From an uncultured Variovorax sp. (lineage in GTDB: Bacteria > Pseudomonadota > Gammaproteobacteria > Burkholderiales > Burkholderiaceae_C): DNA of 52,563 nt. The notes under the pieces were generated by a model. The model did no database searches, had not been told where the DNA came from, and worked only from the letters and a program-made list of their open reading frames with translations. The stretch covers positions 1-52,563 of the forward strand of contig CAJYQC010000370.1 in the NCBI GenBank assembly GCA_913776885.1, in the 5' to 3' direction. The translations under genes were made by a program, and so were the position numbers. Shown here one piece after another: positions 3,789 to 50,278 of this stretch (positions are counted from its first letter, which is position 1; each line of letters begins with the position of its first letter).

Positions 3789-4184
3789 ATGAGCATGAGT
3801 GATCCCATTGCCGACCTGCTGACGCGTATCCGCAACGCGCAGATGGTGGCGAAGCCCACCGTGTCGGTCCCGTCTTCGAAGGTGAAGGTCGCGATCGCAC
3901 AAGTCCTGAAGGACGAGGGCTACATCGACGGCTTCCAGGTCAAGACCGAAGCCGGCAAGAGCGAACTGGAAATCTCGCTGAAGTACTACGCTGGCCGTCC
4001 GGTCATCGAGCGTATCGAGCGTGTGAGCCGCCCTGGTCTGCGCGTCTACAAGGCCAGCGCTTCCATTCCGCAAGTCCAGAACGGCCTCGGCGTCGCCATC
4101 GTCACGACCCCCAAGGGCGTGATGACCGACCGCAAGGCTCGCGCCTCCGGTGTCGGCGGCGAAGTCCTGTGCTACGTCGCCTAA
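3789..4184 (+). CDS. rpsH: 30S ribosomal protein S8
   Basis: [18 protein letters not shown]...GGEVLCYVA. Confidence 0.98.
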
Positions 4185-19959: not shown

Positions 19960-19995
19960 TCACCAAAGATCAGCCACCCTCGGTCTTTACGTGAA

Positions 19996-20083
19996 ACGCC
20001 GCGGAACCGGCTCTGCCGGGCCGCAGGCGTTGTCCCCTGCAAGGGGGTTGGCGAAGCGACACGAAGTGCGCGCAGCCTGAGGG
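19996..20083 (-). repeat. Structured 3' repeat, copy A
   Basis: Core GCGCACTTCGTGTCGCTTCGCCAACCCCCT followed by two hairpins; abuts the stop of the Bug/TTT gene. Confidence 0.85.
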
Positions 20084-21106
20084 TTAGTCAACTTTCGCGC
20101 CGGAGTCCTTCACCACCTTCGCCCACTTCACATGCTCGCTCGCAATGAGCTTGGTGAAGTCGGCAGGCGAATTCCCGCTCGGGATCGCGCCCTGCGCGAG
20201 CATCTTCTCCTTCATGGCCGGCGTGCCCAGCGCCTTTGCCACTTCCTGCTGGATGCGGTTGACGATCTCCGGTGACGTGCCCGCCGGCGCCAGCAGCCCG
20301 AACCACGAGCTCGCCTCGAAGCCCTTGAGCGTCGGGCCGCCCACTTCCGCCACCGTCGGAACGTCGGGCAGGGCCGGCGAACGCTGCGCGCTCGTCACCG
20401 CCAGCGCGGTGAGCTTGCCCGCCTTGATCTGCGCCATCGACGAGGGCAGGTTGTCGAACATCACGTCGGCGTTGCCGCCCACCATGTCCAGTAGCGCAGG
20501 GCCCGAGCCCTTGTACGGGATGTGGGCCATGAAGGTGCTCGTCATGCTCTTGAACAGCTCGCCCGCCAGGTGGATCGAGGTGCCGCTGCCGCTGGAGGCC
20601 ATGTTGAGCTTGCCGGGGTTGGCCTTGGCGTACTTGATGAAGTCCTGCACGTTGTGGATGTTCAGCGACTTCGCCTTGTCGGCGTTCATCTCCATCACGT
20701 TAGGCACCGCGGCCACCAGCGTGATCGGCGCGAAGTCCTTGATCGGGTCGAAGGGCAGCTTGGGGTACAGCGCGCGGTTGATGCCGTGCGTGCCCACCGT
20801 GCCCATCAGCAGCGTGTAGCCGTCGTTGGGCGCGCGCGCCACGATCTCGGCGCCCACGTTGCCGCCGGCACCCGCGCGGTTGTCCACGATGAACTGCTGG
20901 CCGAAGGCCTTGGAAAGCTCGGGCGCGACGGCGCGCGCCAGGATGTCGGTGGTACCGCCGGCCGCGAAGGGCACGACGATGCGCACAGGCTTGGTCGGCC
21001 AGGTGCCCTGGGCCCACGAGGGAGCGGTGATGAGGGTCAGCGCGGCGGCGACGGATGCGGCCAGCGCGGTACGGCGATTCAGGGAGAGAAAAGTCTGATG
21101 GTTCAT
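20084..21106 (-). CDS. Bug family tripartite tricarboxylate transporter substrate-binding protein
   Basis: Signal peptide; [57 protein letters not shown]. Confidence 0.92.
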
Positions 21107-21196: not shown

Positions 21197-22135
21197 TCAG
21201 GCCACCTGCATCCGCTGCGCGAACCGCTCTTCGCGGAAGCGCTCCAGCACGAAATCGATGAACACCCGCGTCTTCGGCGGCAGCAGCTTCTTGCTCGGGT
21301 AGTAGAGCCACACCGCCCCCGCATCCTGGTACCAGTCGGGCAGCAGGCGCATCAGTTCCCCGCTGCGCAGCCCGCGCTCCACGAAGGGCAGCGGCAGCAT
21401 CGCCGCGCCCAGGCCCATCAGCGCGGCGTGTGCGATCGCCTCGGGGTCGTTGAAGATGGCGCGCGGCCGGGGCAGCTCGACGCTGACCTCGCCTTCCCCG
21501 GCGCCGCCGCGCACGCGCCGCAGCGTCCAGCCGCGCACGCGACCCGTGGGGGATGAGCGGCGCATCAGCGTGTCGAGCGCCGCCAGGTCCGACGGATGCC
21601 GGGGCGGCTTGCGCCCCTCCATGTATGCGGGCGAGGCCACCGCCACCACGTGGATTCGCGCCAGCTCGCGCGCCACCAGCCCGGCCGGCAGCTCGATGCC
21701 GCCGCCGATGGCCGCGTCGAAGCCTTCGCCCACCAGGTCGACCTGCTGGTTGTCGAAGTGCCAGTCGGGAACGATGGCCGGGTAGCGCGCGAGAAAGCCG
21801 CCCATCAGCGGCAGCACATGCTCGCGCCCGAATGCCTGGCCCATGCTTACCTTCAACGTGCCCGAGGGCTGGCCGTCGTCGGTGTCGACGCCCGCCACTG
21901 CCTCGCGCAGCGTGGCCAGCGCGCCGCCGATCTGCGCGAGGAAGCGCTCGCCGCCCTCCGTCAGTGTCAGGCTGCGCGTACTGCGCTGGAACAGCCGCAA
22001 GCCCAGCCGCGCTTCCAGCCGCGCCACGTTCTTGCTGACGGCGGCCGGCGTCACGCCCAGCCGCCGTGCGGCCTCGGAGAAGCTGCGGCCCTCAGCGCTC
22101 TGCACGAAGGATTCGAGGTGGTTCAGCGGTTCCAT
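21197..22135 (-). CDS. LysR family transcriptional regulator
   Basis: MEPLNHLESFVQSAEGRSFSEAARRLGVTPAAVSKNVARLEARLGLRLFQRSTRSLTLTEGGERF. Confidence 0.93.
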   Translation of the reverse strand: MEPLNHLESFVQSAEGRSFSEAARRLGVTPAAVSKNVARLEARLGLRLFQRSTRSLTLTEGGERFLAQIGGALATLREAVAGVDTDDGQPSGTLKVSMGQAFGREHVLPLMGGFLARYPAIVPDWHFDNQQVDLVGEGFDAAIGGGIELPAGLVARELARIHVVAVASPAYMEGRKPPRHPSDLAALDTLMRRSSPTGRVRGWTLRRVRGGAGEGEVSVELPRPRAIFNDPEAIAHAALMGLGAAMLPLPFVERGLRSGELMRLLPDWYQDAGAVWLYYPSKKLLPPKTRVFIDFVLERFREERFAQRMQVA

Positions 22136-22258: not shown

Positions 22259-23044
22259 ATGGCCTCCGACACTGCAGCTGCTTCCTCGTCATCTTCATCT
22301 TCATCCCCCGTCCTTGCCAGCAAGGTCGCCTTCGTCACCGGGGGCTCGCGCGGCATTGGCGCGGCCATCGTGCGCCGCCTGGCACGCGACGGCGCCGCCG
22401 TGGCGTTCAGCTACGCCGCTTCGGCCGCGCCGGCCGACGAGCTGGTGCGCAGCATCCAGTCGGAAGGCGGCCGCGCCCTTGCGCTGAAGATCGACAGCGC
22501 CGACGCCGCGGCGCTCACCGCCGGCATCGACGAAGCCGCCCGCACCTTCGGCAGGATCGACATCCTCGTGAACAATGCCGGCGTGTTCCTCGGCGGCACC
22601 CTCGACGAGTTCTCGCTCGAAGACTTCGACAAGACGCTGGCCATCAACGTGCGCGCCGTCTTCGTCGCCGCCAAGGCGGCCTCGCGCCACATGGGCGAGG
22701 GCGGCCGCATCATCAACATCGGCAGCACGAACGCCGAGCGCATGCCCTGGCCCGGCGGCAGCGCCTACGCGATGAGCAAGTCGGCGCTGGTCGGCCTGGT
22801 GCAGGGCCTGTCGCGCGACCTCGGCCCGCGCGGCATCACGGTCAACAACGTGCAGCCCGGCCCGGTCAACACCGACATGAACCCCGTCGACGGCCCCAAC
22901 GCCGCCTCGATGCACGGCCTGATGGCGCTGGCCCGCCACGGTCATCCTGATGAAATCGCCGCCATGGTCGGCTACCTTGCCAGCCCCGAAGCCGGCTTCG
23001 TGACGGGCGCGAGCCTCAACATCGACGGTGGCTTCGCGGCTTGA
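22259..23044 (+). CDS. SDR family oxidoreductase (3-oxoacyl-ACP reductase-like)
   Basis: KVAFVTGGSRGIGAAIVRRLARDGAAVAFSY...NNAGVF...SAYAMSKSALVGLVQGLSRDLGPRGITVNNVQPGPVNTDMNP. Confidence 0.92.
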   Translation: MASDTAAASSSSSSSSPVLASKVAFVTGGSRGIGAAIVRRLARDGAAVAFSYAASAAPADELVRSIQSEGGRALALKIDSADAAALTAGIDEAARTFGRIDILVNNAGVFLGGTLDEFSLEDFDKTLAINVRAVFVAAKAASRHMGEGGRIINIGSTNAERMPWPGGSAYAMSKSALVGLVQGLSRDLGPRGITVNNVQPGPVNTDMNPVDGPNAASMHGLMALARHGHPDEIAAMVGYLASPEAGFVTGASLNIDGGFAA

Positions 23045-23138
23045 CTTGGCTTGCCCCCCAGGCTTCGCGCACTTCGTGTCGCTTCGCCAACCCCCTTCCG
23101 GGGCAACACCAACGGCCCGGCAAAGCCGGTTCCGTGGT
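23045..23138 (+). repeat. Structured 3' repeat, copy B1
   Basis: Begins directly after the SDR stop; same core as copy A; tandem with B2. Confidence 0.85.
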
Positions 23139-23140
23139 AG

Positions 23141-23240
23141 CACTTGGCTCGCCCCCAGGCTTCGCGCACTTCGTGTCGCTTCGCCAACCCCCTTCCGGGG
23201 GCAACACCAACGGCCCGGCAAAGCCGGTTCCGTGGTGTTC
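23141..23240 (+). repeat. Structured 3' repeat, copy B2
   Basis: Near-identical tandem copy of B1. Confidence 0.85.
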
Positions 23241-23272
23241 TGAAATGGGGTCTGGCCTGCTCGTGGTTGCGG

Positions 23273-41634: not shown

Positions 41635-41672
41635 GAAAAAAAAAGAAGCCGCCATCCCAAAAGACAGCGGCT
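41635..41672 (-). terminator. Intrinsic terminator of the Bug/TTT gene, downstream of repeat copy C
   Basis: Minus strand: AGCCGC...GCGGCT followed by TCTTTTTTTTT. Confidence 0.7.
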
Positions 41673-41690
41673 CCAAGCATTCAATTCCAG

Positions 41691-41780
41691 GAACACCGAG
41701 GAACCGGCTCTGCCGGGCCTCAGGTGTGCCCCCGGAAGGGGGTTGGCGAAGCGACACGAAGTGCGCGCAGCCTGGGGGAG
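41691..41780 (-). repeat. Structured 3' repeat, copy C
   Basis: Same core as the other copies; lies between the TTT stop codon and the terminator. Confidence 0.85.
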
Positions 41781-41787
41781 AACCAGG

Positions 41788-42762
41788 TCAATCGGCGTAC
41801 ACGCCGGCAGCCTTGATGATCGGGCCCCACTTCGCGATTTCCGACGAGACGAACTTCTTGTGTTCGGCCGGCTCGGTGCGCTTGTCGGTGGTGATCACCG
41901 CGCCCAGCGCTTCTTCACGCTGGATGAAGCCAGGGTCCTTCATGGCGGCCTTGATGGCTTCGTTGAGCTTCTTCAGCACCGGTGCGGGCGTGCCCTTGGG
42001 CGCGTACACGCCGTGCCAGATCGTCACTTCGAAGCCCTTGAGGCCCGACTCGTCCAGCGTGGGCAGATCTTTCAGCGCGGGCGTGGTCAGGCGCTTGCTC
42101 GTGGTCACGGCATAGGCCTTGACCTTCTTGGCCCCGATCTGCGAGGAGGTGTTGGTGGTCTGGTCGCACAGCAGGTCGATCTGGCCGCCCAGCAGGTCGG
42201 CGATGGCCGGTGCGGTGCCCTTGTAGGGAACCGGCGTCATCTCGACCTTCAGCGCGCTCTGGAACAGCAGGCCGCACAGGTGCGACGCGGCGCCCAGGCC
42301 GGCGTTGCCCAGATTGATCTTGCCCTTGTTGGCAGCGATCCAGGTCGTCAGCTCCTTGTAGTTGTTGGCCGGCAGGCCGGGCTTGCCGATCAGCGTCATC
42401 GGCACTTCGTTGACCATGCCCAGGTATTCGAAGTCGGTCTCGACGTTGAAGGGCAGCTTGCGATAGAGCGCCGGCATGGTCGACATGCCGATGTGGTTGA
42501 GCAGCAGCGTGTAGCCGTCGGGGTTGGCGCGCGCCACCTTGGCGGTGCCGATGGAACTGCCCGCGCCGGCGGTGTTGTCCACCACGATGGTGGTGCCCAG
42601 CGTCTTCTGCATGGCCTCTGCCAGGTCGCGGGCGACACGGTCGGTAGGGCCGCCGGCGGCGAACGGCACCACCAGCGTCACGGTCTTGCCGGCAGGGAAA
42701 TCCTGGGCGTGTGCACCGACGGCCGCGGCGGCAATCGCCGCGAGGGCGAACAGTTTCTTCAT
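41788..42762 (-). CDS. Bug family tripartite tricarboxylate transporter substrate-binding protein
   Basis: [72 protein letters not shown]. Confidence 0.92.
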   Translation of the reverse strand: MKKLFALAAIAAAAVGAHAQDFPAGKTVTLVVPFAAGGPTDRVARDLAEAMQKTLGTTIVVDNTAGAGSSIGTAKVARANPDGYTLLLNHIGMSTMPALYRKLPFNVETDFEYLGMVNEVPMTLIGKPGLPANNYKELTTWIAANKGKINLGNAGLGAASHLCGLLFQSALKVEMTPVPYKGTAPAIADLLGGQIDLLCDQTTNTSSQIGAKKVKAYAVTTSKRLTTPALKDLPTLDESGLKGFEVTIWHGVYAPKGTPAPVLKKLNEAIKAAMKDPGFIQREEALGAVITTDKRTEPAEHKKFVSSEIAKWGPIIKAAGVYAD

Positions 42763-48773: not shown

Positions 48774-48850
48774 GGTGTGGTCCGAAGCATTCGAAAGAAC
48801 CGACGCGATGCCGTTCTTTCGGATGCCCGCTTGGCCCACCTCCTTTCGGG

Positions 48851-48941
48851 GAACACCGCGGAACCGGCTTTGCCGGGCCGCAGGTGTTGCCCCCTGCCAG
48901 GGGGTTGGCGAAGCGACACGAAGTGCGCGAAGACTTGGGGG
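48851..48941 (-). repeat. Structured 3' repeat, copy D
   Basis: Same core and hairpins; 5 nt after the SBP stop and upstream of livF. Confidence 0.85.
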
Positions 48942-48946
48942 TCAGC

Positions 48947-50278
48947 TCAAGACTGGCAATCCGCCGATTCGCGGCGCGTGAGCTTCTTCTCGCCCGCGTA
49001 CTTGTCGGCAGCCGCCTTCGCCATCGGCTTGATGATCTGCTCGTCGGCCTGGTACCAGTCGGACATGTCGCCCCACTTCGCGCCGTCCCAGGTGTGCACG
49101 CGCGCCCAGGTCGAGCCCATGTGGTCCTGGCAGGAGGTGCTCAGCGGACGCATCACGCCGGAGAAGCCCAGCGCGTCGAGCTTCTTCTGGTCGAGCGCGA
49201 GGTTCTCCATGCCCCAGCGCACCTGCTCGCCGGTCATGACCTTGCCCTTGCCGAAGCGCTCCTGCGCGCGCTTCACGGCCTCGATGGTCAGCATCTGGAT
49301 GATCACGCCGCGCGTGTAGAGCACCGAGCCCACTTCTTCCTTCGGACCCGTGCCCTGGCCCTTGTCGTGCACCTGCTTGAGGATGTCCTGGATCACCTTG
49401 GGCTCGGTGCCCGAGGTGTTCAGCGCCAGCGCGTGGTAGCCCTTGGCGTTGGCGCCCACGTCCTTCACGTCGGGCTCGGCGCCGGCCCACCACACGCCAT
49501 ACATCTTGTCGCGCGGGTAGCCGGTGGCCACGGCCTCCTTCAGTGCGGTGGAGTTCATCACGCCCCAGCCCCACAGCAGCACGAAGTCGGGGCGCTGCTG
49601 GCGCACCTGCAGCCACGCCGACTTCTGCTCCACGCCGGGCGCGGTCACCGGGATCAGCGAGAGCTCGAAGCCGTTCTGCTTGGCGCGCTCCTGCAGCAGC
49701 GGAATCGGTTCCTTGCCGAATGGCGAGTCGTGGTAGACGAGGGCGATCTTCTTGCCCTTGAGCTTGTCCATGCCGCCTTCCTTCTTCCCGATGTGCTGGA
49801 TCAGGATGTCGGCCGCGGTCCAGTAGGAGCCCATCAGCGGGAAGTTCCACTTGAAGACGCCGCCGTCCTGCGAGGCGGCCAGGCCGTAGCCCAGCGTGAT
49901 CAGCGGGATCTTGTCGGTGGGCACCTTGTCGGTCAGCGCGAAGGTGATGCCGGTGGCCTGCGGGTCGAACAGCGCCACGCCCGGGCGGCCCTTCAGGCGC
50001 TCGTAGCACTCCACGCCCTTGTCGGTGGCGTAGCCGGTCTCGCACTCCTCGTACGCGATCTTCACGCCGTTGATGCCGCCATTGGCATTGACCAGCTTGA
50101 TGTAGTCCTGCTTGCCGTTGGCCCAGGGCGTGCCGTTGGGCGCGTAGGGGCCGGTGCGGTACACCAGCAGCGGGAAGAACTGCTCCTTGGCCTGCGCGCC
50201 GGCCACGGATGGCGCGAGCGCGGCGCCGAGCGTGCCGGCCACCAGGGCGGCGGTCAGAGCGAGCGATTTCAGTTTCAT
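48947..50278 (-). CDS. Liv-type ABC transporter substrate-binding protein
   Basis: MKLKSLALTAALVAGTLGAALAPSVAGAQAKEQFFPLLVYRTGPYAPNGTPWANGKQDYIKLVNANGGINGVKI. Confidence 0.9.
   Translation of the reverse strand: MKLKSLALTAALVAGTLGAALAPSVAGAQAKEQFFPLLVYRTGPYAPNGTPWANGKQDYIKLVNANGGINGVKIAYEECETGYATDKGVECYERLKGRPGVALFDPQATGITFALTDKVPTDKIPLITLGYGLAASQDGGVFKWNFPLMGSYWTAADILIQHIGKKEGGMDKLKGKKIALVYHDSPFGKEPIPLLQERAKQNGFELSLIPVTAPGVEQKSAWLQVRQQRPDFVLLWGWGVMNSTALKEAVATGYPRDKMYGVWWAGAEPDVKDVGANAKGYHALALNTSGTEPKVIQDILKQVHDKGQGTGPKEEVGSVLYTRGVIIQMLTIEAVKRAQERFGKGKVMTGEQVRWGMENLALDQKKLDALGFSGVMRPLSTSCQDHMGSTWARVHTWDGAKWGDMSDWYQADEQIIKPMAKAAADKYAGEKKLTRRESADCQS

Follow-up and report, generated by a model that had tools for sequence, protein, structure and literature searches.

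The window, i.e. the whole 52,563-nt stretch of DNA analysed here, which comes from an uncultured Variovorax sp., carries five copies of a repeated element at the 3' ends of four genes (Table 1). An earlier note made from the sequence of the window had placed five copies there, next to unrelated host genes. All five are present, with corrected C-tract starts and element spans, and the hosts, two TctC/Bug receptors, one SDR oxidoreductase and one Liv-type substrate-binding protein, are indeed unrelated. The best-scoring frame of the copy D host ends at 48947, not at 48942, and an ABC ATPase gene comes after this host gene. Copy C is placed between the stop codon of its host and an intrinsic terminator.

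Table 1. Copies of the element, their host genes and a neighbouring terminator in the window.
Feature	Position	Strand	Stop-to-C-tract gap (nt)	Remarks
Copy A	19993-20083	-	0	C-tract 20079-20083; hairpin A core 20056-20071
Copy A, hairpin B	about 20033-20047	-
Copy A, hairpin C	about 19995-20031	-
Host gene of copy A	20084-21106	-		TctC/Bug receptor; stop abuts element
Host gene of copies B	22370-23044	+		SDR oxidoreductase; alternative upstream start possible at 21596
Copy B1	23055-23137	+	10	First tandem unit; hairpin C shortened at GGTAG
Copy B2	23152-23242	+		Second tandem unit, 97 nt after B1; z = -3.95
Copy B2, C-tract	23152-23156	+
Copy B2, hairpin A	23164-23179	+
Copy B2, hairpin B	23188-23201	+
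Copy B2, hairpin C	23203-23239	+
Terminator	41645-41674	-		Intrinsic; GC stem followed by a T-run; past copy C
Copy C	41688-41778	-	9	Follows the stop of a TctC gene
Host gene of copy C	41788-42762	-		TctC/Bug receptor
Copy D	48850-48941	-	6	Follows the stop of the Peripla_BP_6 gene
Host gene of copy D	48947-50278	-		Periplasmic Liv-type binding protein (Peripla_BP_6)

In the reading direction of the host gene, a unit of about 91 nt follows the stop codon after 0-13 nt and consists, in this order, of a C-tract (CCCCCAG), hairpin A, CUUCGCCAA, hairpin B and hairpin C. The unit had been described as having two hairpins; it has three, as the 30 nt previously taken for an invariant segment fold as hairpin A (GCGCAC-UUC-GUG-U-CGC, with a bulged U). 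The invariance holds inside the element's own lineage, where the UUC loop and the bulged U hardly vary, and fails elsewhere, since across genera unrelated hairpins often stand in for hairpin A. Hairpin B is made of CCCCC and GGGGG around a loop of 4-5 nt, and hairpin C, with a conserved internal loop, approximates AACACC-N-GCGG-C-CCGGC-AAA-GCCGG-UU-CCGC-GGUGUU. The five copies of the window fold 1.8-4.0 SD better than dinucleotide shuffles (z about -2 to -4), and the GC content of copy B2 is 68%. In the predicted minimum-energy fold of copy D the G-tract is paired with C-tract 1, not with C-tract 2; the lengths of C-tract 1 and the G-tract show too little variation for an analysis of their covariation. 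Pairing of the leader (TTGGC) with GCCAA was rejected, being no more frequent than in shuffles (267 vs 264). Family-wide, the two unpaired sites in the internal loop of hairpin C vary jointly, C occurring with TT and A with AT (GGCCCGG..CCGGTTCC vs GGACCGG..CCGGATCC), a hint that this loop is under constraint.

The C-tract, hairpin B and the core of hairpin C persist across genera, and the segments at the position of hairpin A outside Variovorax (48 distinct ones) have a median z of about -2 relative to mononucleotide shuffles. At three loci, L046 (minus-strand copy at 4012), L050 (2067) and L062 (5279), the C-tract and hairpins A and B are kept and hairpin C is replaced by a second module (GGGCCGGCCGCTTCGGGCGGCCGTGCGCGGCGGCC), thus module swapping also occurs at the 3' end.

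The suspicion of a lineage-specific REP-like family was borne out. In the 5.48-Mb source genome the 30-nt core had 82+84 = 166 matches with up to 3 mismatches and the hairpin-C pattern had 220, and the reversed patterns had 0+0 and 0, respectively. V. paradoxus 110B, which is very close to the source genome, has 286 copies. At least one match was found in 76 of the 151 genomes of the family sample; among the carriers are Variovorax, Hydrogenophaga, Ramlibacter, Rhodoferax, Curvibacter, Hylemonella and Rubrivivax. Outside the family, the pattern had only two matches in a class-wide sample of 291 genomes, both with 3 mismatches and probably due to chance. A covariance model, which is more tolerant, detected the architecture also in two sampled genomes of a second Burkholderiales family. 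The units of this second family (genomes G563 and G603, loci L421-L430) are shorter and heavily tandem, they have GAAGCGC-UGC-GCGCUUC as hairpin A and an A/A internal loop in hairpin C, and their first copies lie 4-33 nt past stops, some at 19-33 nt, so that the positional rule is looser there. The element was not found in phages, and its plasmid occurrences are confined to secondary replicons of Variovorax and Comamonadaceae. No Rfam family matched above the gathering score, which fits the uncharacterised repeat that had been suspected.

Gene ends were called with a codon-usage gene finder, and the placement counts rest on 93 mapped copies out of some 220 in the genome. Upstream of 89 of these lies a gene on the same strand, and 72 start 0-13 nt past a sense-strand stop codon. 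Nearly all the others stand second or third in head-to-tail arrays, in which the units are direct repeats 97-99 nt apart; no copy of the source genome falls inside a called gene. In other genera, which were judged independently, 145 of 157 elements are on the sense strand, and of the 135 sites with a placeable C-tract all except 2 have a gap of 0-13 nt. If insertion were uniform in the available intergenic space and orientation random, the joint probability of the observed arrangement would be about 10^-70; the constancy of orientation and stop distance, noted previously for the window copies, goes far beyond what such insertion would give. An annotated, RefSeq-derived record fits the rule: its CDS ends at 1201 and the C-tract begins 4-5 nt further on. 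In a second record a truncated unit stands right after the stop and is followed by a full unit. Hairpin A starts 12-25 nt beyond the stop codon, presumably at the edge of the terminating ribosome.

All three stop codons are used at the 72 sites (TGA 41, TAG 19, TAA 12) and the C-termini of the proteins are unchanged between orthologs with and without the element, thus the stops are native, and a role of the element in supplying the stop codon is ruled out. An ATG beside the stop is enriched (49% vs 21%). A small ORF starting from this ATG was dismissed because its frame is not kept from copy to copy when the loop of hairpin B changes in length. The filled/empty pair L246/L247 shows that such an ATG can be what was formerly the start codon of the following gene: the element lies inside a TGATGA stop/start overlap, with ATGA left of the element and another ATGA at the present start of the next gene. 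In Variovorax genomes without the element, unrelated long inverted repeats often stand right after the same ftsZ or infB stops (loci L229-L236, L257, L258, L261, L271 and L273), so the post-stop site seems to be a niche open to structured repeats in general.

Strong GC-rich hairpins directly past a stop codon, in some cases between convergent genes as with window copies A, B and C, could be taken for a terminator or attenuator, stopping or reducing transcription past the upstream gene. We consider this quite unlikely. The consensus of the element has no U-tract, and of the 70 first copies 56 have a co-directional gene after them, often at 20-80 nt; the likely operon hosts infB, kdpA and urtB, each with a close co-directional gene downstream, are among these contexts. 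The co-directional share (80%) is not below the background of other gene ends (77%), and ordinary intrinsic terminators come after window copy C and after plasmid copies. Genes for substrate-binding proteins are over-represented among the hosts (12/72 vs 2/72, p = 0.009). In E. coli, REPs occur after binding-protein genes, and the malE-malF REP is the classic setting.

The compensatory base changes described in the earlier note are statistically well founded. In the 83 aligned copies of the source genome 97.4% of the cells were paired, and in hairpin C eight pairs had changed on both sides, a result equalled in none of 500 shuffles. The further claim, that the family is maintained as an RNA element, found no such support. 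RNA-level selection on the individual copies should favour G.U over A.C, and such selection was not seen: mismatched states of hairpin C, read on the sense strand, were G.U in 24 and A.C in 36 cases (p = 0.16). Moreover, copies are gained and lost between close relatives. The symmetry of G.U and A.C suggests either that many of the one-sided changes are young and nearly neutral, or that conversion or a process acting on the DNA also keeps up the pairing. Coupled A-T to C-G changes are among the differences between orthologous copies of the source genome and of V. paradoxus 110B; at a divergence of about 4% they are difficult to account for by point mutation.

The element was found in 5 of 29 Variovorax orthologs of infB and in 4 of 29 orthologs of ftsZ (source genome included in both counts), in the same place and with unchanged C-termini. 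This patchy presence means that no host gene needs the element. Across the syntenic 52 kb, G165 and G169 share copy A, G160 and G154 retain C-tract remnants of it, and V. paradoxus 110B (G159) has it with an altered hairpin C. Copies B are shared with G159, copy C with G174 only, and copy D with G159, G165 and G157; species lacking the element at site D carry another stable hairpin there. Thirty copies of the source genome have an orthologous flank in V. paradoxus 110B, of which 25 were scored as filled and 5 as empty. Two of the five "empty" sites contain a changed element and two look like tandem-number differences, leaving window copy C as the clear empty site. The number of units in arrays also differs between the two genomes. 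The 24 shared copies differ by 4.5%, a value biased low because only copies matching the consensus entered the comparison, and the next 50 nt by 8.3% (p = 2e-5); the 3' flank also has many more gaps than the element. Exact insertion boundaries and target duplication could not be read, the non-coding flanks being unalignable even at 97% identity. The gains and losses between close species make mobility or gene conversion part of the story.

Much of this would be expected of a selfish, REP/MITE-like DNA repeat, whose hairpins serve its own copying and which is tolerated after stop codons without any host function, copies at these places breaking neither the gene nor the start signals of the next one. 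The absence of a G.U bias, the homogeneity of hairpin A within the lineage, the tandem-number changes, the lineage-specific gains and losses and the frequency of compact junctions (median intergenic length before insertion 65 nt) all point in this direction, and the coupled changes between orthologous copies resemble conversion or template switching. Tolerance, however, leaves unexplained why the orientation is fixed and why the 13-nt edge is kept where the intergenic space is 150-400 nt. Neither the lower divergence of the shared copies relative to their flank nor the lack of a transposase that follows copy number is easily reconciled with this explanation, which we regard as possible, if doubtful. 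A RAYT/Y1 transposase as the mover was rejected, as neither linkage nor copy-number correlation was found. The source genome has one Y1_Tnp gene, with no element within its 3.3-kb locus, the presence of Y1 transposases is unrelated to copy number, and 4 of the 24 genomes with at least 10 copies have none. A member of the family, genome G016 (a single contig of 4320685 bp), has about 20 Y1_Tnp matches, several of them near-identical; these represent an IS200-like element that has expanded there and has no relation to the repeat.

It is interesting to compare the element with known repeats. It is probably the BRE (Beta-proteobacterial repeat element) of Hot et al. 2011 (PMC3110155), matched by description and not by sequence. 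BREs are intergenic, 75-91 bp long with 69% GC, occur in tandem in variable number with few nt between units, and are patchy between related strains (PMC3110155); our element is likewise intergenic, 91 nt long with 68% GC (copy B2), and forms tandem arrays of 97-99 nt periodicity whose unit number varies between relatives. BREs were reported from Bordetella and from Comamonadaceae (Polaromonas, Acidovorax, Delftia, Rhodoferax) (PMC3110155). Our element occurs in Comamonadaceae genera, and its architecture was found in a second Burkholderiales family; the units of G563 and G603 are possibly BREs of the Bordetella type. The reported BREs differ in copy number, at most 29 per genome as opposed to about 220 here, and are sometimes within coding sequence (PMC3110155). 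They were described without a stop-codon rule, an architecture or a function (PMC3110155), and a literature search on Variovorax and Comamonadaceae with REP-type names returned no prior description besides BRE. The stop-codon rule, the three-hairpin architecture and the module swapping are new.

The BREs were discovered via transcribed small RNAs of Bordetella (PMC3110155), which brings up the possibility that the element is a protein docking or sponge site in the 3'-UTR, for example of ProQ or Csr type, or the source of a 3'-UTR-derived small RNA. The near-invariant loop and bulge of hairpin A, the conserved internal loop of hairpin C and the hundreds of near-identical sites would suit such a role, but the free exchange of hairpin A outside the lineage, in other genera, argues against one sequence-specific binder of this hairpin. 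Overall we find a docking site or small RNA source very unlikely.

The REP/PU and BIME repeats of E. coli offer a further parallel: they too are hundreds of dispersed 3'-UTR hairpins, many near stops and in tandem clusters. Like them, the element is an imperfect-palindrome hairpin in more than 100 intergenic copies. A REP is, however, a single palindrome of 20-50 nt arranged in inverted pairs (BIME), whereas the element is a 91-nt, three-hairpin unit arranged in direct repeats. About 11-52% of REPs are near stops, and the element is nearly always within 13 nt of one and on the sense strand; the REP/RAYT system has a linked Y1 transposase flanked by repeats, a linkage missing here. REPs located less than 16 nt from the stop codon lower translation and stall ribosomes, and 260 of 496 sit there (PMC12306157). 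REPs also act as exonuclease barriers. By this analogy the element likely works as REPs do, but it falls outside the REP/RAYT class because of its unit structure and its lack of transposase linkage. ERIC, Correia/NEMIS, BOX and RUP are short, dispersed, structured intergenic repeats as well, with sequences and ends unlike those of the element, and we know of none that follows a strict post-stop, sense-only rule.

Position, orientation, the likely placement within transcripts and the enrichment of binding-protein genes favour, as far as can be told from sequence, a role in the 3'-UTR. Our preferred interpretation, to which we assign a probability of about 0.55, is that of a REP-like dispersed element kept as a stop-proximal 3'-UTR structure that tunes the upstream mRNA. 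This three-hairpin Burkholderiales element would spread by copying and be retained almost only on the sense strand, as the first feature past a stop. Its stable structure, 12-25 nt past the stop, would stand just outside the footprint of the terminating ribosome. There it would most likely act on the upstream message, blocking 3'-to-5' exonucleases, so that the upstream cistron is favoured over the downstream one, and/or slowing terminating ribosomes, as do E. coli REPs within 15 nt of the stop. We infer transcription of the element, its effect on exonucleases or ribosomes and its mode of spreading. An unlikely variant would be a mobile element coupled to translation termination itself, gained only beside native stops, inside the footprint of the terminating ribosome, and acting as a ribosome-gated RNA switch. 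In such a switch two C-tracts would compete for one G-tract: hairpin B would form while a ribosome covers C-tract 1, and C-tract 1, once uncovered, would take the G-tract for itself, the pairing predicted for copy D.

It has long been asked whether REP-type repeats are junk, mobile DNA or regulators in the 3'-UTR, and E. coli gives a blurred picture, since some of its REPs lie near stops and others do not. In the present family of 220 copies, one positional rule is followed by nearly every array. The presence/absence pairs at infB, ftsZ and the Bug/Liv receptors in close species make an effect on mRNA or translation testable, and a function for BRE-type repeats could follow.
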